Source: a virus
Direction: 5' to 3' (one strand)
Length of the DNA: 23,891 bases
IMG/VR virus record: IMGVR_UViG_3300034198_008166
Span: 1 to 23,891 of that record
This document shows, in pieces, positions 3,185 to 21,185 of the stretch (its first letter is position 1; every line of letters begins with the position of its first letter). Both the position numbers and the translations under genes were made by a program. Below the pieces are notes generated by a model. It saw only the letters and a program-made list of their open reading frames with translations. It made no database searches and had not been told where the DNA came from.

Positions 3185-3517
3185 TCAATTAAGACATATT
3201 TTTCCATAGTCACCAATATCTACAAATATATTTGTTACATCAAAATCAAGATTGGTTTTTTCTAAAGATTCATTTTTTAATTCACCTTTGGATGCTGCAA
3301 TAGCCAAAACCGTTTTTCTTAATAATTCAAATTGATTGATATTTAACATGACTTCTCCGTTATCTTCAAAATTTTTTTGTGATATTTTAGCAAGGTGTTC
3401 AAAAAATAAATCACTATCTATATGTGATAAAAAATATTTTTTGGCTTCATTGTTATTATCCAAGTATCTTTTAACTGATTGTATGTATATTAATACTTCC
3501 GGAGTAAACCCACTCAT
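3185..3517 (-). CDS. Hypothetical protein, 110 aa
   Basis: Not recognised. The sequence looks like a compact, mostly helical soluble protein (long helix-forming stretches at residues 5-45 and 60-85, acidic C-terminal part DFDVTNIFVDIGDYG) with no signal peptide, membrane segment or metal motif. Its ATG overlaps the stop of the NusG-like gene by 4 bases, so it is almost certainly co-translated with that gene, and it may share its transcription role, though nothing in the protein shows this. Confidence 0.65.
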   Translation of the reverse strand: MSGFTPEVLIYIQSVKRYLDNNNEAKKYFLSHIDSDLFFEHLAKISQKNFEDNGEVMLNINQFELLRKTVLAIAASKGELKNESLEKTNLDFDVTNIFVDIGDYGKICLN

Positions 3518-4038
3518 ATTTTTTGTATTTGGTCTAAGCCTAATGACACAACCGTATTTCTTCCAAATATTTTTACTTCAATATCAACTTTATCACTTTT
3601 TAATTCAAGAATACATCCTTCAAATGTTGAAAATGGTCCATCAGAAATAATAACCTTTTCACCATAAAGATATTTTAATTTTTTAGTTTCAATATGGTCT
3701 TCCAATTTTTCATCTTTTAATATTCTTTCCACGTCTTTTTTATTCATGAGCATTGGTAATTTTTCACCAACCATACCCATAATGTTTGGAATTAATGATA
3801 TGTTTTTTAACTCATCTTCATTTAACTTATTTTCTGATTCAAAATAAAGATAGCCGCCATATATCACTTTTTCTCTCAAAACTTTTTTCTTTTTAGTTGT
3901 TACAAACTCTTTTTCGGTTGGGCACACGAATCTTTTAATATTTTTAATTCTACCTAAGTTAATTTGTTGATTAAATTGCTCGTTTAATTGTCTCTCTTTA
4001 CCCGGTAAAACTTTAATGACGTACCAATTTGTATCCAT
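3514..4038 (-). CDS. nusG: NusG-like transcription elongation/antitermination factor
   Basis: 174 residues, close to bacterial NusG length. An NGN domain (about 1-110) begins with the characteristic W5-Y-V-I-K followed by PGKERQLNEQF, and contains the GGYLYFE strand. A KOW domain (about 125-174) shows GEKVIISDGPFSTFEG and ends VSLGLDQIQKI. NusG proteins bind the RNA polymerase clamp and change pausing and termination; specialised paralogues such as RfaH act on chosen operons. A phage copy could tune host polymerase for phage transcripts. It is the first gene of the minus-strand cluster down to 1489 and faces the divergent plus-strand genes across a 110-base gap that should hold promoters for both. 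It could be a specialised NusG paralogue rather than a true replacement. Confidence 0.85.
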   Translation of the reverse strand: MDTNWYVIKVLPGKERQLNEQFNQQINLGRIKNIKRFVCPTEKEFVTTKKKKVLREKVIYGGYLYFESENKLNEDELKNISLIPNIMGMVGEKLPMLMNKKDVERILKDEKLEDHIETKKLKYLYGEKVIISDGPFSTFEGCILELKSDKVDIEVKIFGRNTVVSLGLDQIQKI

Positions 4039-8876: not shown

Positions 8877-9385
8877 TACTTAATATTGGTTTGTCTTTGT
8901 GTTATTAACGGTTCCATGGCCGTTTTATATACCATTTCAAATTTCAATAACTTGGATACAATATCAATAACATCTTGCTCAATTTTCAACATATCAGCAT
9001 TAATATATAAACCATTTTCTTCACCAGCAATAAAAACAAAACTAATATCTTTATCGGTTAGTGTACCATCTAATCTAATTTGTCTTTCGTTTATTGTCAT
9101 GCCCGGTGTGAATTGAACTATTTGTGATACTTGTTGTCTAAAATTGTCAATCAATTGTGAAACCGTTGTTTTTTGTTCATCACTTAAATGCATGTCATTT
9201 TGGTCGGATGATAACATTTTTACGTCAACATCATTAATTACCGTAATATCATTTTTAATATTTTTTTGAGCATTCTCATCTTGCTCTCTTAAATTACTTG
9301 ATGTTTGTTTTGATTCATTAAGTTTTCTTAATGTATTCAACATTTTCTTTGTTTCATCGTAACCTATATTCTTATAGTTGCTCAT
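8876..9385 (-). CDS. Hypothetical protein, 169 aa
   Basis: Not recognised. An N-terminal helix (YDETKKMLNTLRKLNES) is followed by a disordered Gln/Asn-rich linker to about residue 60, then a domain of roughly 100 residues with alternating helices and strands (VSQLIDNFRQQVSQIV, INERQIRLDGTLTD, ISFVFIAGEENGLYINADML, VDIVSKLLKFEMVY). A short N-terminal helix joined by a linker to a folded domain is common among phage head-associated proteins, but that is weak evidence. It overlaps the amidase-like gene by 14 bases and the next gene by one base. Confidence 0.55.
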   Translation of the reverse strand: MSNYKNIGYDETKKMLNTLRKLNESKQTSSNLREQDENAQKNIKNDITVINDVDVKMLSSDQNDMHLSDEQKTTVSQLIDNFRQQVSQIVQFTPGMTINERQIRLDGTLTDKDISFVFIAGEENGLYINADMLKIEQDVIDIVSKLLKFEMVYKTAMEPLITQRQTNIK

Positions 9386-9980
9386 TATTGAAAATTGTTC
9401 TAAAATTGAATGAAGGGTTTATATCTGTATAAATATCTGAAAAGTTGGATTTACATACTATCCCGTTAAAATTAGGGACATTTTGTAAGTACCCTTGAGA
9501 AGAAACGGCTTGTTTATTTATGTGGTGTTTATCACATAAAAATTCACACAATTCAGAAACTAGTTCTAATTGTGTGTCCGTGTATTTGTCCCAAAAAAAA
9601 CGATTTCTCCAACCTTTTATATAGGGTTCTGACCTATATGGGTCACCTATCCAATTATTCAGTACACCGGTTATCGTATTTTTATTAAGCCACCCTAAAT
9701 TTTCTATAGCAATACTTATAATTTTTTTATCTATTTTTGGTTCATTAAAAATAATAGAACTATGATTTGTGTCAAATATTTGATATACTTGGCCTAACTT
9801 GGAGATAATAAAATGTGGTATTTCTTGATACCTACCGTTTTTTCTATATTGGAGTTTATTTACGTAGTCGTCCAATCTTCTTTTGGTATCAAATAATAGA
9901 ATTTGACTTTTTTTAGTCTTTCTTTTATTTATATTTAATTTCTTATTATTTAATGCTTCTACGCCTTGGATTGTTAACAT
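9372..9980 (-). CDS. Amidase_2/PGRP-fold protein, zinc ligands degenerate
   Basis: 202 residues. The Amidase_2 order can be followed: first strand ILLF (27-30), IPHFIISKLGQVYQIFD (54-70) like the family's HF.I...G.vyq, IISIAIENLGW (87-97), the YTDTQLELVSELCEFL helix (133-148), and T185-D186-I-N-P189-S-F at the end. The family cleaves the amide between N-acetylmuramic acid and L-alanine using zinc held by two His and one Asp or Cys (H34, H154, D164 in AmpD; H17, H122, C130 in T7 lysozyme). Here the first His position reads Asp31 and the second falls in AVSSQG (159-163) without a His; only D186 remains. The protein may therefore bind but not cut peptidoglycan, or have another role. Its start lies inside the -1 frame extension of the next upstream gene. 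Confidence 0.6.
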   Translation of the reverse strand: MLTIQGVEALNNKKLNINKRKTKKSQILLFDTKRRLDDYVNKLQYRKNGRYQEIPHFIISKLGQVYQIFDTNHSSIIFNEPKIDKKIISIAIENLGWLNKNTITGVLNNWIGDPYRSEPYIKGWRNRFFWDKYTDTQLELVSELCEFLCDKHHINKQAVSSQGYLQNVPNFNGIVCKSNFSDIYTDINPSFNFRTIFNNEQL

Positions 9981-10182
9981 TTCTTGACACCACTCTTTTT
10001 TCTATACTTATGGGGTTAATTGGTGTTGTTTCTAAATTATAAACTATTTCAATAGGATTATCCTCGTCTTTTTCCTCAAATACTTCGTCAGATTCTTGTA
10101 ATTCTGAAATTGGAAGAACTTGTTCTATCGTCGTATCGATAATTACTTCTGTCTCTTGGATTATAATATTCGATTCTATTGA
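9946..10182 (-). other. Frame-shifted 78-codon extension of the membrane protein gene
   Basis: Immediately past the A10 tract (10183-10192) the -1 frame is open from 10182 to a TAA at 9946-9948. It reads SIESNIIIQETEVIIDTT and continues with the same Glu/Asp-rich composition as the tail it would extend (ESDEVFEEKDEDNPIE), ending in a basic VVSRNVNNPRRRSIK. There is no ATG in this frame and no convincing start of its own, so it is best read as the continuation of the upstream gene by ribosomal or polymerase slippage, or as evidence of a one-base error in the homopolymer. It overlaps the amidase-like gene by 35 bases. Without it the 195 bases at 9981-10175 would be noncoding, which would be odd in so tightly packed a region. 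Confidence 0.65.
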
Positions 10183-11375
10183 TTTTTTTTTTCAACCTCT
10201 TCAGTTAAGGTTTCTTCAACTTTTGGTTCTTCTTTTGATTCAATAATCGGTTGTTCAGTTGACTGATAATTCTGTTGCTCATCTTCTATTGTTGGTTCAT
10301 GTGTTAATGTTTCTTGATTAACGATTTCTTCCTTAATTAATGGATTTGATGTGTAATCATATAAACCCATTTCTTGGGCTTGTTGTGTCAAAAAATCTAA
10401 TAATTCTGCTCTTTCCTCATCTGTCGGTCCTTCGTTATTTTCTTTAATAGATTCTGAATATTGATTAGTAGACTCTTTCAATTTTTCGTTTGGTTCCGGC
10501 GGGTTATTTAAATATTTTTCCAATACTTTTAAATCCTCCTCAGATGCTCTCCAACGAGAAATTTCACCAACTAAATCAACGGCTTCAATTTTATCAACCG
10601 GTTCGTCAACTTTATCTGCTTTTGGTTCTTCTTTGTTTTCTGGTAATTTAGAATTCATTACTAATTGATTCAAAGCAATAACTAAAGCGATTGCCAACGG
10701 ATCGAACACAATTACAATCAATATAATAAAAAACTTAACAACGGTATTTAAATCAACATTAAAGGCCTGAGCTACAAATCTAAAACCGCCCACTTCTCGC
10801 TCAATATCAATATTGTTATTTTTTATTTTGTTGATTTCCTCGTTATATTTAACGTTTTCATCTTGTAGTAAACTAATTTTATCAGATATTTTATTAGTTT
10901 GTTTATCACGATTATCAATCGACTTTAGTAGTCTATTGTTTACTTTACCATTGTCAATAATTTTATCTTGATTGGATTGTAAATTATTTAATTGATTTGT
11001 TAAAGTTGATACTTGTTGATTATTTGTTTTAATTTTTGTATCCCAAACGGAAATATCTCTTTGTACTTGGTCTAATTTTAAATTTTGTTGCTGAAATGCG
11101 TTGGATAAATAACCAAAAATACCTGCAGAAGTAATAACCATAAGTACCGCCACAGAAGATGTTAGATACCATTTGTTAAAACCTTTTACAACATCCCATT
11201 TTTGTTTAAGATATGTTGCAGTAACTAATTTAGCAAATTCCAAAGAACCCGCCATAATCATAACGGATATTGATGCACCAGCAAACAATATCCCTAAACC
11301 AGTTACTGAAAAATAAGCGGCACTACCTGCAATCATAATGGCCGCTATTGCAACCAAATATTTTAACCAATTCAT
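10176..11375 (-). CDS. Four-helix membrane protein with coiled coil and acidic tail
   Basis: 399 residues to the in-frame stop. Hydrophobic segments lie at about 4-22, 24-44, 70-92 and 212-238. Between the third and fourth is a polar, heptad-like coiled coil (about 96-192, rich in Gln, Asn, Lys, Asp). The tail from 239 on is highly acidic and low complexity (EEPKVEETLTEEVEKKNQ). FRFVAQAFN before the last segment and FDPLAIALVIA within it are the most distinctive blocks. Similar 'coil-containing' membrane proteins occur in marine T4-like phages; function is unknown. The frame ends just after an A10 tract, and the same type of acidic sequence continues for 78 codons in the -1 frame, so the true protein may be about 475 residues. 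Confidence 0.75.
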   Translation of the reverse strand: MNWLKYLVAIAAIMIAGSAAYFSVTGLGILFAGASISVMIMAGSLEFAKLVTATYLKQKWDVVKGFNKWYLTSSVAVLMVITSAGIFGYLSNAFQQQNLKLDQVQRDISVWDTKIKTNNQQVSTLTNQLNNLQSNQDKIIDNGKVNNRLLKSIDNRDKQTNKISDKISLLQDENVKYNEEINKIKNNNIDIEREVGGFRFVAQAFNVDLNTVVKFFIILIVIVFDPLAIALVIALNQLVMNSKLPENKEEPKADKVDEPVDKIEAVDLVGEISRWRASEEDLKVLEKYLNNPPEPNEKLKESTNQYSESIKENNEGPTDEERAELLDFLTQQAQEMGLYDYTSNPLIKEEIVNQETLTHEPTIEDEQQNYQSTEQPIIESKEEPKVEETLTEEVEKKNQ

Positions 11376-11381
11376 AGCATG

Positions 11382-12191
11382 TTATAAATATTTTAGAAGT
11401 AAAAAACTTTCGTTTCTCAACTTCTTTATGGCTTTATCCCTTAATTGTCTAATACGCTCTTTAGTACAATTAAATTCTTCACCTAAATCCTCAAGATTAG
11501 ATTCTATTCCGGTTAATCCGTAATATTTTTCTATAATTGTTTTTTCTCTCTCATCAAGAACACCAAGCATTAATGATACCTTTTTCTTTATTTCATCATT
11601 GGTGTTTAGTGCGTTTTCCGGATTATCAGCATTATGATTAGGGATAATATCAATTAGTTCATCACCATCCTCATTTATTTCATTATATAAACCTATACAA
11701 TAAGGAAAGGAAGAACCTGCTTGGTCATCTGATTGATGTACGTAATAATTATCCTCTTCGTTTAATTCCTCTTTCTTTTGTTTTTGGGATTCTTGTACAA
11801 TATTAGACGGAAGTCTTATTGTTCTAGCATTTTCGTTTAAGGATGACATTATAGATTGTCTAACCCACCATACGGCATATGAAATAAATTTATAACCCTT
11901 TGTGGAATCAAATTTTTCTACCGCTTTTATTAAGCCTATATTACCCTCATTAACCAAATCTAAAAAATCCATGCCTTGATTTTGGTAGGATTTGACCACA
12001 GATAAGACAAATCTCAAATTTCCAACCACCAATTCATCATGTAATTTTTTTCTTTGTTGTTTTGTTAAGTCTTTTTTCTTTAGTGATTCAAAAATTTCTT
12101 CTTGTCTTTCATGAGATATAACAGGAATTTTTCTTATATCCTTTATATATTGCTGAATCTCATCTGTGTTAATAATAATAGATTTTCTCAT
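11382..12191 (-). CDS. Sigma-70 family RNA polymerase sigma factor
   Basis: 269 residues. Region 1.2-like sequence lies at about 11-40. Region 2 spans about 54-127 and is very well kept: NLRFVLSVVKSYQNQGM, DLVNEGNIGLIKAVEKFD, YKFISYAVWWVRQSI (core binding and -10 melting). Region 4 (about 205-262) has LDEREKTIIEKYYGL and a helix-turn-helix (NLEDLGEEFNCTKERIRQLRDKA). Region 3 is replaced by a shorter acidic, low-complexity link (about 133-200). The overall style is like Bacteroidetes primary sigma factors rather than T4 gp55, which lacks a full region 4. It would direct polymerase to phage promoters. A TATAAT-like stretch (GTTATATAATCC) lies about 15 bases before the ATG. The gene ends 6 bases before the membrane protein start. 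Confidence 0.9.
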   Translation of the reverse strand: MRKSIIINTDEIQQYIKDIRKIPVISHERQEEIFESLKKKDLTKQQRKKLHDELVVGNLRFVLSVVKSYQNQGMDFLDLVNEGNIGLIKAVEKFDSTKGYKFISYAVWWVRQSIMSSLNENARTIRLPSNIVQESQKQKKEELNEEDNYYVHQSDDQAGSSFPYCIGLYNEINEDGDELIDIIPNHNADNPENALNTNDEIKKKVSLMLGVLDEREKTIIEKYYGLTGIESNLEDLGEEFNCTKERIRQLRDKAIKKLRNESFLLLKYL

Positions 12192-14112: not shown

Positions 14113-16458
14113 TTATGTGGAAATCTTTGTTGTTATATAATCTATTTTTGAAATATTATCCTCTTTCTTAATCATTATAATATTGTCCGACCAGTTTCTT
14201 ATTAACGGATTATGTGAAATCAGAATTATATGTTCAAAATAATTTTTAATCTTTTTAAAGAATTCTCCAACCATTTCCAGATTCTCCTCAGCAATTTTAC
14301 CAAATACTTCATCCATAACTATAATGTTTGGTTTTGGTAATGATGAAATTTTTGTGAGAACGCTACGTATAGCCATAGATGAAATTGTCCTTTCATAACC
14401 AGACCCCGAATTAAGAGGCTTTACAACGCGAGTTTCAGTATCAATCATCATAAATTCAACTTCATTTTTATCACTTATATTCAATTCTAAAATAAAATGA
14501 CAACTATCGACAAGCAATCTAAACAATTCAATATTCAATAATGGAATCATGTTTTTCAAAATAATTTTTGAAATACCATTCTTTCCATAAATTGTTAAAT
14601 AAATTTTAAATACTGATAATAATTCTTCTTCTTGTTTTATTTTAACTATTAATTCATTATTTGTTTTTATTTTTTCTATTAGATTGCTAATGTTATTTTT
14701 ATGCTTTTCTAAATTACTATTAGTTACTCTGATATCCGCATTTACTGTATCAATTTGTGTACGTAATCGTATAATTTGAGAATCAATTCTTTGGTTTTCT
14801 TCTAATTTCTTTTTATTGCTTTCGTATCTTTCTAATTTATTTTGCTTAGTGTTTATCTCTAATTGTTTTTGCTCAACTTCAAGTAGGTGTCTTTCTTTTT
14901 TTAGTTTATTCTTTTCGTATGTATCATACTCTATTTTTAAGTCAGTATAATATTTTTCAGATAATTTTAGTTCTGAAATTTCTTCTGTTATTACACTTTG
15001 TTTTGTTCTTATTGATTGAATTTCATTTAAAATAGTATTAATTTCTTCTGTATGGTCAACATCAACCAATGGCCTATTACACGTTGGACAGACAGAACCT
15101 TCTTCAAATTTTTTAATTAATTTGACATTACTTTCTATTTTACTTTCATTTAATTTTAAATTTAAATGTAAACCAGAAATTTTGTTCTTTATTTTTTCGT
15201 GGTCGTCTTCCAAATAATAATTGGATGGTTCCACTACATTAATAGAATCAGCATTTTTTTGTGCGATTAGTTTATTGTTATTTAAATCAACGATTTCTCT
15301 TTGTAATAGGGTTGGATTAACATTTATTAATTCTTTATCTATATCATTGTTTCTTGAACCCAACGCTTCGTCTTTCTCTTTTTCAATATTTTTTAAATTA
15401 GTTGTAAATTTTACTAATTCCCCATCTAATATTTTAATTTCATTTTCTGAATTTTCAATATTATCACTATTTTTTTGATTTTCATTTTCTAAATCAATAA
15501 TATTATATGTGTTTGAAATTAATTTTTTACTCCAATCATTATAAAATCCTTTACAGATTTCTTCTTTGATTTTAAGATTTTCCAATCCTAAAAACTTGGT
15601 TAGTATTTGTCCTCTCGCTGTTGGCTTAGATTCTATTAGTTCTTCAAGATTATAACCGGTTGTCAATATTGTTGAAAGAAAATCCTCCTCGCTACCAATT
15701 GCTGAAGATATAAATGTTTCGGTTTCTCTTCTTTGTTCACCGGTTAAATTCTCAATTTCACCGTTGTCTTTTCTTTTATAGAATTCTAATTTATTTGTAA
15801 CCGTATATTCACCAGACTTCCCAAGTTTTCGTGAAATTGTGCGTTCAATCACATAATCATAACCGTCAATTGTTATTTCTCCTTTGACACTAACTTCATT
15901 TTTATCGGTAAATTTATTAAAAATTTCTCCGTTAGTTTTTGTTTTAGTTGTACTATTAAAAAACAAAAACATTAATAAATCAACCGTTGACGTTGATTTA
16001 CCTCCAAAGTTTTTTGGCGTTGATTCTATAACAGTAATACCATCTAATGTTGTAAATTCAATTACATTGTCATCACTAAAAGAAAGAAAATTAGAAAATT
16101 CAATTTTTTTAATATACCATTTATTATAACGTATCTTATTTTGATTTTGCTTATCAATTTCAACATTTACTTTATTATCTAATCTATCAATCATTTCCCA
16201 TTTGACATCAATATTATTTTCCTTAATAAAATCTTTCATCAATTTCTTTTGATATTGATGGTCAAGAATATTATCGGACGCTTCTAATGATTCAAGTTTT
16301 GTTGATTTGGTATCCGAAATATTTTTTGTTATTACTTGAACGGTCTTCGTATTATATTTATTTTGAAAATACGCCTTTACTCTTCTTATTTTTTCAGAGG
16401 TAAAATTTTCAGATGTATCGTGCCAAGTAACTTTAACTAAAGGATTGTTATATTCCAT
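14113..16458 (-). CDS. Rad50/SbcC-like recombination ATPase (T4 gp46-like)
   Basis: 781 residues. After an unusual N-terminal extension of about 115 residues, the ABC head starts at WYIKKIEFSNFLSFSDD. The P-loop reads STPKNFGGKST (146-156): the GKST part is intact, but the first glycine of the usual GxNGxGKS is Pro. A long coiled coil (about 315-615) is split by a zinc hook C457-P-T-C460. The C-terminal head carries the signature SGSGYERTISS (684-694), Walker B IIVMDE (712-717), D-loop and the H-loop His749. With the Mre11-like partner at 17102 it would resect DNA ends for recombination-dependent replication. Two small genes separate it from that partner. Identity is firm; the N-terminal extension has no recognised domain. 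Confidence 0.9.
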   Translation of the reverse strand: MEYNNPLVKVTWHDTSENFTSEKIRRVKAYFQNKYNTKTVQVITKNISDTKSTKLESLEASDNILDHQYQKKLMKDFIKENNIDVKWEMIDRLDNKVNVEIDKQNQNKIRYNKWYIKKIEFSNFLSFSDDNVIEFTTLDGITVIESTPKNFGGKSTSTVDLLMFLFFNSTTKTKTNGEIFNKFTDKNEVSVKGEITIDGYDYVIERTISRKLGKSGEYTVTNKLEFYKRKDNGEIENLTGEQRRETETFISSAIGSEEDFLSTILTTGYNLEELIESKPTARGQILTKFLGLENLKIKEEICKGFYNDWSKKLISNTYNIIDLENENQKNSDNIENSENEIKILDGELVKFTTNLKNIEKEKDEALGSRNNDIDKELINVNPTLLQREIVDLNNNKLIAQKNADSINVVEPSNYYLEDDHEKIKNKISGLHLNLKLNESKIESNVKLIKKFEEGSVCPTCNRPLVDVDHTEEINTILNEIQSIRTKQSVITEEISELKLSEKYYTDLKIEYDTYEKNKLKKERHLLEVEQKQLEINTKQNKLERYESNKKKLEENQRIDSQIIRLRTQIDTVNADIRVTNSNLEKHKNNISNLIEKIKTNNELIVKIKQEEELLSVFKIYLTIYGKNGISKIILKNMIPLLNIELFRLLVDSCHFILELNISDKNEVEFMMIDTETRVVKPLNSGSGYERTISSMAIRSVLTKISSLPKPNIIVMDEVFGKIAEENLEMVGEFFKKIKNYFEHIILISHNPLIRNWSDNIIMIKKEDNISKIDYITTKIST

Positions 16459-16818: not shown

Positions 16819-17136
16819 TTATTCGTCATATAAATTTGTTTCAATATTTTTTGGTTTCACCGAAATGTTACCTTCCACATAAACTTTATTTACCGGTGGT
16901 ATAGGTGGAGGAGGTGGAGGTGGTGCTTGTGTATTTGTTATAACTTCTTTCACATTTTTTTTCATAATACCATCAACTAAAGGTTTAGGTATTTTTGGTT
17001 CTCTATCATATTTGATTGATGTAAATCCTTTTGTGAAAACTTCCTTTGCGAATTTTTCAATATCTTGAATATTATTCAATTCACAATATTTTATGAATTC
17101 ATCATCCAAGATTAAGTAATTGTTCTTTTTCATCAT
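16819..17136 (-). CDS. Hypothetical protein with polyproline stretch, 105 aa
   Basis: The N-terminal half is a conserved-looking small domain (ILDDEFIKYCELNNIQDIEK, then FAKEVFTKGFTSIKY) I associate with phage hypothetical proteins. A run of seven prolines then IPP follows (residues 72-81), and the tail is polar. Runs of proline slow ribosomes and normally require EF-P, so this product may be made slowly. Two adjacent ATGs (17136, 17133) lie within the end of the gp47-like gene, giving a 35-base overlap. A weak six-base stem (16808-16813 with 16825-16830) surrounds the stop. No function is recognised. Confidence 0.6.
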   Translation of the reverse strand: MMKKNNYLILDDEFIKYCELNNIQDIEKFAKEVFTKGFTSIKYDREPKIPKPLVDGIMKKNVKEVITNTQAPPPPPPPIPPVNKVYVEGNISVKPKNIETNLYDE

Positions 17137-17908
17137 CTATATCTTTTATATCACTTATTGAAAAATGCATGAATGGTTGTTCACTATGTAAATCATAAAA
17201 TTCATACTTGTCTGCATTAATATCATATATTCCATAACCATGGTGTTTAATAGTTTCACCAAAATTTTGTTGTATTAAACTACCAACCATTATAGCTTTT
17301 CCACTACCTGACAATTCGAATTGTTGTCTTTTGTGTATGTCTCCACATAATAATAAATCCAAATCAACAAAATTTAATCTATCATATGCGTCATCAAATT
17401 TATAACCGGTATCTGTAGACAAACCTTGTATTGGGCCATGAAATAAACCAACATAAAGTTTACCATCATCTTCTTTTTTAAATTTTGGGCGTTCATTGTG
17501 TTGATATAAAGAGTATACGACCCATTTTACATTTGAATCTTCATATACCCCGCTATCTTTATAATATTCAACATTGATATCATCCATCATTTCAATAATT
17601 GGCGTAATGCTATCTAATCTTTGGGTATTATTTTCCAAGAAATCATGATTACCCGGAATAATAATCACTACACCAATTTTAGTTAGTTCTTTAATAAACC
17701 AACTTGTTAGTAATAATTGTTCATTAGAGATATTAATTTTATTATGAAAAAGGTCCCCAGTAATTATAATTCTAATTTCATTTTGTTCATAACTTGATAA
17801 CTTAATTTTTAATTGCTCAATTAATTTTTCAAATTGAGTTTTATATAAATCATGATATTGAACCGTTCGGATGTGTATATCAGCAATATGGATTATTTTT
17901 TTTATCAT
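17102..17908 (-). CDS. Mre11/SbcD-like nuclease (T4 gp47-like)
   Basis: 268 residues. The calcineurin-type phosphoesterase motifs are all readable: I: HIADIHIR (D9, H11); II: GDLFHNK (about 50-56); III: IPGNHDF (N87, H88); IV: LFHGPIQ; V: CGDIHKRQ (D and H); then VGSLIQQNFGE. These residues hold two metal ions and cut DNA as endo- and exonuclease. The protein is shorter than cellular SbcD and close to T4 gp47 in size, so the capping domain is small. It would pair with the ATPase at 14113. Its start overlaps the end of the PD-(D/E)XK gene by 4 bases. Confidence 0.9.
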   Translation of the reverse strand: MIKKIIHIADIHIRTVQYHDLYKTQFEKLIEQLKIKLSSYEQNEIRIIITGDLFHNKINISNEQLLLTSWFIKELTKIGVVIIIPGNHDFLENNTQRLDSITPIIEMMDDINVEYYKDSGVYEDSNVKWVVYSLYQHNERPKFKKEDDGKLYVGLFHGPIQGLSTDTGYKFDDAYDRLNFVDLDLLLCGDIHKRQQFELSGSGKAIMVGSLIQQNFGETIKHHGYGIYDINADKYEFYDLHSEQPFMHFSISDIKDIDDEKEQLLNLG

Positions 17909-19852: not shown

Positions 19853-20470
19853 CTAATTTTTAATATTCATTTTATTCATGTTGACATATCCAATAACCGT
19901 AGCAATAGCGTCGGCCATATCATAATTTTCTTTTTTTAAATTATTATTTTTTCCATATAACCATTTGATGTCAGGGAATAAAGAATTTACACGTTCCCAT
20001 ATTACTTGTTTTTTATCGATATCTTTTGGATAACCACCAAATAAAACACTACGTCCTTTATCGTTTTTACCTAACAAATCAGGGAAAGCATATTTTCTTG
20101 CATTGTATGTTGATATGAATGTTGGTAATATACCCAAAATATCATAACAATTTTTTAAAATCATCGTATTATATCTTAATAAAGTACCGACAGTGTAAAT
20201 GTTATTCGATTGTAATAATGGTTCTTCAATGACAATACGAATTATACCCATATTTTTATAATTCTCTAAGTGCTTTGCAAAAGCATCGGCTTTTTTCAAT
20301 AACTCCTCTATTTTATCCTCTGGTTGTGGTTTTATTTTTGGTGAAAAATGCGTCAACTCTAAAAGTTCAGAACCATTCAAATCAAATAATGCAAAACCCA
20401 CGGTTTTACTAGACACATCCAATCCCAAAATTTTAGGTTTATTTTTAAATTTAATTAAATTATCACTCAT
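19853..20470 (-). CDS. RuvC-like Holliday junction resolvase
   Basis: 205 residues with the RNase H-like fold of RuvC. The first catalytic Asp is D18 in ILGLDVSSKTVGFALFD, the Glu is in RIVIEEPL (81-82), and the C-terminal Asp is in NYDMADAIAT (183 or 186). The enzyme would cut four-way junctions or branched DNA that recombination and replication leave before packaging. T4 uses an unrelated resolvase (endonuclease VII), so this is a replacement, as in several Bacteroidetes and poxvirus-type systems. The start overlaps the end of the homing endonuclease gene by 8 bases. Confidence 0.85.
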   Translation of the reverse strand: MSDNLIKFKNKPKILGLDVSSKTVGFALFDLNGSELLELTHFSPKIKPQPEDKIEELLKKADAFAKHLENYKNMGIIRIVIEEPLLQSNNIYTVGTLLRYNTMILKNCYDILGILPTFISTYNARKYAFPDLLGKNDKGRSVLFGGYPKDIDKKQVIWERVNSLFPDIKWLYGKNNNLKKENYDMADAIATVIGYVNMNKMNIKN

Positions 20471-21185
20471 AATATTTCCATTTATATCCTGCCGCTGTTT
20501 TTACTTTACCTAAACAACATTCACTAATATGATTATTTTTATATTTTTTTTTAGCTTCCGATATTGACCCCCAAATTTTTATCACTTTATTATCCAATGT
20601 CAATTGTACTATTTGTTTTTTTTGGTGCGAATGTGAATTAGATAATTTCTCACAATATTCTTTATCATATTTTTTCCCTTTATTGGGGGATGTTCTACCT
20701 TTTAATGATAATGATAAATTATTTCTATGTGAAAGTGAACGTTCTTTTCCGCGTAAACGTAATATTGGTTTACCTTTTTTTGCCAATGAAATATTTTTTC
20801 TTGTTATTTCACTTCTTTTTTTACCTATATTAGATTTAGAAATTCTTTCAATTTCTTCTTTTGTTCTTTTTCTTCCTATTAGGTTTGGTGGATTTTCCCC
20901 CCCTTGAGAGATATTAGTTAATTTACAACCGATAAATTTATAATATGAAATGTAATGTTTTTCCCAAAATTCCCAATTATATTCATCTACTTCATCTATT
21001 ATTAATAATTCGGGTTTGTTATTATTTTCTAATAAAGAATATATCCATTTGTCTTTGTAACTAATTTTTTTATTACTATCTTGTAAATGTTTTCTGTAAC
21101 GAGATTTTGGATTTATACTTTTACCAACATATTTTAATTCGTTTTTTGATTTATCAACTAATCCGTATATGTATACTTTTCCCAA
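20463..21185 (-). CDS. GIY-YIG homing endonuclease with NUMOD3 repeats
   Basis: 240 residues. The GIY-YIG core shows VYIYGLVD (4-11), LKYVGKS (17-23), and RYRKHL, followed by an aromatic helix WEFWEKHYISYYK that carries the catalytic Glu. From about 100 come NUMOD3-type DNA-binding repeats (GRKRTKEEIERISKSNIG, KKRSEITRKNISLAKKGKP, GRTSPNKGKK) and a C-terminal HTH-like KIWGSISEAKKKYKN with GYKWKYYE. Such free-standing nucleases cut a relative's genome and copy themselves into the break. The start codon seems to be TTG at 21185; I see no upstream ATG. The gene sits directly before the resolvase and overlaps it by 8 bases, suggesting it entered between genes and now shares the transcript. Confidence 0.9.
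   Translation of the reverse strand: MGKVYIYGLVDKSKNELKYVGKSINPKSRYRKHLQDSNKKISYKDKWIYSLLENNNKPELLIIDEVDEYNWEFWEKHYISYYKFIGCKLTNISQGGENPPNLIGRKRTKEEIERISKSNIGKKRSEITRKNISLAKKGKPILRLRGKERSLSHRNNLSLSLKGRTSPNKGKKYDKEYCEKLSNSHSHQKKQIVQLTLDNKVIKIWGSISEAKKKYKNNHISECCLGKVKTAAGYKWKYYE

Follow-up and report, generated by a model that had tools for sequence, protein, structure and literature searches.

A hairpin-flanked poly-A run in a phage gene family suggests two membrane-protein forms made by programmed transcriptional slippage

For phages, programmed frameshifting has been described chiefly as a ribosomal event, and chiefly in genes for tail and coat proteins. The question here is whether a membrane-protein gene found in a viral genome (IMG/VR record IMGVR_UViG_3300034198_008166) is read into two products of different length and, if so, whether RNA polymerase or the ribosome slips. 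The gene lies on the minus strand of the window, by which we mean the whole stretch of 23,891 nt analysed, and the site reads GAGGTTG-AAAAAAAAAA-TCAATAG (Table 1). The original prediction held that the gene stops just after ten A, that the -1 frame beyond is open for 78 codons without a start codon and fills a 195-base noncoding gap, and that slippage would yield products of about 399 and 475 residues, whether by the ribosome or by the polymerase being left open. The sequence bears out this layout: the -1 frame is open from stop to stop at 9946-10191 (81 codons, 78 of them past the run), carries no ATG and only two GTG, at codons 63-64, spans the entire 195 nt between the short-form ORF and the amidase gene and then enters the latter, and the short and long products would have 399 and ~476 aa. 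Shuffled sequence of the same composition stays open over an equal -1 distance in only ~0.2% of trials. The run is the sole A10 in the window, with no longer A-run there, and in the related 212-kb contig G013 the corresponding run is the only one of A10 or more on either strand.

Table 1 Features of the two-form gene and its surroundings in the window
Feature	Positions	Strand	Remark
A10 slippery run	10183-10192	-	read directly; A9-A11 in all 53 relative clusters
Zero-frame stop TAG, short-form end	10176-10178	-	4 nt past the A10 run
Short-form ORF, 399 aa	10176-11375	-	four predicted TM helices, a long helical hairpin between predicted helices three and four, acidic tail last
RNA hairpin AACCTT(7-nt loop)GAGGTT, 6 bp	10194-10212	-	1 nt before the A10 run; 10212-10207 pairs with 10199-10194
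-1 frame extension	9946-10182	-	78 codons + stop; conserved EKD-x-x-NP...Y-[DN]-L-E motif
N-acetylmuramoyl-L-alanine amidase gene (PF01510)	9372-9980	-	downstream; homologue follows the run in relatives
Extension end overlapping amidase gene start	9946-9980	-	35 nt
Sigma-70 family factor gene	11382-12191	-	upstream; conserved neighbour in L092, L094 and G013

Searches with two sequences returned 80 loci sharing the membrane core of a first N-terminal module. In those closest in the tail, the zero frame stops 0-4 codons past a run of A9-A11 and the -1 frame continues for tens of codons with the common motif LYWEKDDxNPNQVIYDLENNKVIIP, the one exception being L017, a close relative of L021, whose extension lies in the +1 frame. 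A search based on the extension recovered L092-L094, in which a single uninterrupted frame of 527-564 aa takes in core, A10 and extension, and one based on the linker showed that a different N-terminal membrane module can also precede this tail, run and extension; the loci without the VFDPLA motif of the first module carry this second module, with tail and run identical in kind. When the second module was searched by its conserved N-terminal peptides, and hence blind to the run, 54 distinct tails were obtained: the extension is at -1 in 43 and in frame in 4, and the other 7 belong to short proteins without tail or run. Collapsing near-identical relatives left 53 sequence clusters with the two membrane modules, which share a common ancestry and are thus incompletely independent. 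The extension is at -1 in 46 of them, in frame in six and at +1 in one, and the run is A9 (n = 2), A10 (n = 42) or A11 (n = 9), never shorter than nine. This conservation strongly supports the original proposal that programmed slippage yields a short and a long product. Long -1 ORFs behind L026, L031 and L084 were rejected as extensions, being an unrelated gene in another context with its own ATG. No cultured close relative was found, the best phage matches being below 60% identity, and a scan of genome contigs for the host gave 176 pattern matches and no confirmed relative. A distant homologue was seen near position 3885 of L009 (LR756501.1), a 735-kb phage, with a 47-codon -1 extension and an A9 sitting behind AACC-AGT-GGTT, a weak fold.

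A one-base homopolymer error, or a decaying gene with one base missing from a truly continuous frame, would give the same appearance in a single contig. The -1 relation, however, is found again in 46 clusters whose flanks differ and which come from many independent metagenomes, both parts of the gene are under purifying selection and the stop stands directly past the run, so that such an error, which the original prediction had offered as the simpler alternative, is excluded as a general explanation, and we give it very little credence. The sequence beyond the short stop is homologous between relatives rather than unrelated, and in the six in-frame clusters the aligned long form is one continuous frame, which marks the predicted extension as part of the same protein. 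In all six of these clusters the +1 frame terminates 1-3 codons past the run, implying that slippage there would yield the short form; on this comparison two products appear to be retained whichever form is in frame.

The extension itself behaves as coding sequence. We computed dN/dS in the -1 frame with the last 45 nt left out; for pairs of greater divergence the values were ~0.1-0.3 (L012/L013 0.22, L015/L127 0.16, L096/L138 0.09, and the in-frame pair L092/L094 0.18), and most pairs show purifying selection. The values are more scattered where sequences are very close or short: pairs among L100, L102 and L118 gave 0.3-0.8, and L129/L139 gave 2.5 over only 35 codons, comparisons too short or too recent to be informative. 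The conserved -1 motif is LYWEKDDxNPNQVIYDLEN; the conserved end, RNVxNxxRRxxR, was left out of the evidence because it overlaps the amidase start. An independent start for the extension was rejected, since 24 of 27 extensions carry no ATG.

Could the run instead toggle the two forms through changes of the DNA tract between phages? Over 7.6 kb, L017 and L021 share 98.4% identity, with 117 differing positions and a sole gap, which falls within the A-run (A10 versus A11), and the six in-frame clusters would also fit such phase variation; the difference between L017 and L021 may reflect true variation in length or an error in the consensus. But the phases are far from random (46:6:1), and where run length differs between lineages a compensating change preserves the -1 relation (L012 with A11, L013 with A10). 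DNA slippage, moreover, has no need of the covarying RNA hairpin described below. Run length was constant in the other close groups compared, including pairs 94-97% identical, and phase variation is therefore not our main reading; we consider it very improbable.

On reading all the relatives, a small inverted repeat was noticed in the 20 nt preceding the run. In the window the stem has a computed energy of -4.9 kcal/mol (z -2.1), and over 33 representatives the 26-nt windows ending at the run average -6.3 kcal/mol, against means of -0.1 to -2.1 kcal/mol at other offsets within 150 nt of the same sequences; put more broadly, the hairpin averages about -6 kcal/mol, versus about -1.3 elsewhere in the genes. 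An energy of -4 kcal/mol or better was reached in 80% of the 46 -1 clusters and in 9.2% of 4242 control windows. The clusters carry 28 different stems, and when the 5' and 3' arms were swapped between clusters the mean stability fell from -6.1 to -2.6, none of 5000 permutations being as stable, as expected if the arms covary. In 24 of 27 cases stem and run are separated by 0-3 nt. Under a harder control, shuffles that preserve the codons, the mean was -2.5 and 12 of 33 hairpins were individually significant, and a clear adjacent hairpin is absent in 10 of the 46 -1 clusters, for example L104, L175 and L183. None of the other runs of at least nine A in G013 or the window has such a hairpin, and an Rfam search of the window gave no match. 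Among the A-runs of the window, one of nine A lies in a GIY-YIG homing endonuclease gene (20463-21185), 78 nt before that gene's own stop.

The long form might also arise from unaltered mRNA if the ribosome shifted by -1 on A_AAA_AAA or A_AAA_AAG. The window run, read as GAA AAA AAA AAT, contains an in-frame A_AAA_AAA heptamer of the X_XXY_YYZ type, as do the runs of the relatives, with A_AAA_AAG at L001, L028 and L152; -1 is the usual direction of such shifts, and ribosomes are known to slide on poly-A (A11; PMC4363877). However, a downstream stimulator was not seen: over the 75 nt past the run in 24 relatives the mean z was -0.52 versus -0.35 in control windows, in a model that covers structures other than pseudoknots. 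A hairpin adjoining the site on its upstream side attenuates -1 shifting, also by 70S ribosomes (PMC6321510). The heptamer needs just 6-7 A, yet runs below nine are absent in the 53 clusters, and in the in-frame relatives the short form would call for a shift of +1 or -2. In a test for a Shine-Dalgarno-like stimulator, the purine-rich stretches upstream of the run were not separable from the acidic codons. Ribosomal frameshifting as the source of the long form is thus unlikely in our judgement, and polymerase and ribosome could both contribute.

Runs of A9 followed by G (A_AAA_AAG) precede a -1 extension of a different kind at L152:7729-8013, L028:4950-5050 and L001:5831-6727. The extension of L152 is a C-terminal domain with DxDGDG repeats (KWINDQNAVNYW), which in related proteins, L023 and L058 among them, is in frame. 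L028 and L152 have no adjacent hairpin, so these A9G sites may be ribosomal.

The covarying hairpin directly 5' of the run, the lack of downstream structure and the run of at least nine A together point to the polymerase rather than the ribosome, and nine A is the length given for efficient slippage by bacterial polymerase (PMC5009743). Five features can be read in the genomes themselves: the A-run, its hairpin, a frame relation that is conserved, purifying selection on the extension and the amidase overlap. From these we infer that one gene probably gives rise to two membrane-protein forms through programmed transcriptional slippage. In copying the A10 tract, RNA polymerase would carry an rA:dT hybrid of 9-10 bp, and the nascent-RNA hairpin would at the same time fold just behind the enzyme, an arrangement like that of an intrinsic terminator with A replacing U. 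The hybrid would then realign, presumably at a rate that leaves a fraction of the mRNAs with one extra A (or two fewer). The unslipped mRNA would be translated into the 399-aa form, and the slipped mRNA, translated in the normal way, into the ~476-aa form bearing the conserved C-terminal extension. Ribosomes on the slipped mRNA would terminate just inside the amidase start, and slippage may for this reason also couple translation into the amidase.

In the representatives examined, the extension ends 32-38 nt inside the amidase gene or 1-21 nt before its start, the position in L118 depending on the start codon chosen, and the reported case of Shigella spa13/spa32 (PMC5009743) makes coupling to the amidase a reasonable hypothesis. 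The gene does not adjoin tail tube or tape measure genes, the position of lambda G/GT. Besides the sigma-70 family factor the phage encodes a NusG-like antiterminator (window 3514-4038), which suggests phage control of the host RNA polymerase; a search of four related contigs for an RNA polymerase beta subunit of the phage's own was negative. Elsewhere in the window an SbcC-like gene (14113-16458) and an SbcD-like gene (17102-17908) form a close pair among primase, exonuclease and RuvC-like genes.

As to the protein, structure models suggest that four helices cross the membrane, that the first module has a long helical hairpin and that the tail is disordered (mean pLDDT 60.6 and 47.9). At E 0.001 or better the model folds matched nothing in the PDB, and given this and the low confidence of the models we draw no function from the fold. 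The protein core had no accepted match in Pfam or PHROG. In L097, L103, L104 and L117, acidic and PTPTPT repeat tails lie between the membrane module and the slippage site; they are variable, with very different lengths in relatives.

Taken more widely, we give an even chance to the reading that hairpin and A9-A11 run form a dedicated polymerase-slippage cassette, which large tailed phages of one clade carry on two different membrane-protein modules. The polymerase rather than the ribosome would then determine both the proportions of short and extended protein and the coupling of translation to the amidase. A few bacterial genes and mobile elements already provide examples of this class of mechanism; what is surprising here is the setting, its scale and the covariation. 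In the literature we found no conserved phage family using a hairpin and an A-run for slippage, and to our knowledge no earlier case of conserved stem-loop transcriptional slippage exists in DNA phages, so that, if the cassette reading is true, this would be the first as far as we know. About fifty natural cassette variants in which the hairpin is kept while its sequence changes amount to a natural mutagenesis set for asking in what way polymerase slippage is driven by a hairpin in the nascent RNA. Gene callers would miss the conserved C-terminus in many such phages.

Several known systems resemble this locus in part. Like the G/GT tail chaperone gene of phage lambda, it is a phage gene with a short product and a -1 extended one, the ratio in lambda being fixed (PMC5009743), but the lambda shift is ribosomal and serves a tail-assembly gene, whereas the neighbours here are a sigma factor and an amidase. 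In Shigella spa13/spa32 a slippage extension likewise overlaps the start of the next gene; there the gene belongs to type III secretion and the effect on expression of the next gene was measured, whereas here the coupling is inferred (PMC5009743). Poly-A transcriptional slippage in tssM1 of Citrobacter rodentium (A11) and tssM3 of Yersinia pseudotuberculosis also gives a membrane protein in two lengths, one gene being lengthened and the other shortened (PMC4256274), much as the -1 and in-frame relatives would be here, although tssM is a bacterial secretion gene for an unrelated protein. In the Roseiflexus IS630 element, studied by Penno et al. 2015 and described in PMC5009743, stem-loop-mediated slippage on T5C5 proceeds with loss of one C; the hairpin is similarly 5'-adjacent to the slippery sequence in a terminator-like geometry, but that sequence is heteropolymeric, whereas the window has a poly-A run and would need one A gained or two lost. 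Similar to the window, too, is IS1447 of the IS3 family, in which an A9 lies directly behind a stem loop and slippage joins two frames into a longer protein; there the +1 frame is required for the functional product, slippage reaches ~16% in either direction and a run of seven A is enough (PMC6211511). Unlike that transposase, the gene described here encodes a phage membrane protein, is extended in the -1 frame from a run of A9-A11, and has kept its hairpin by covariation.
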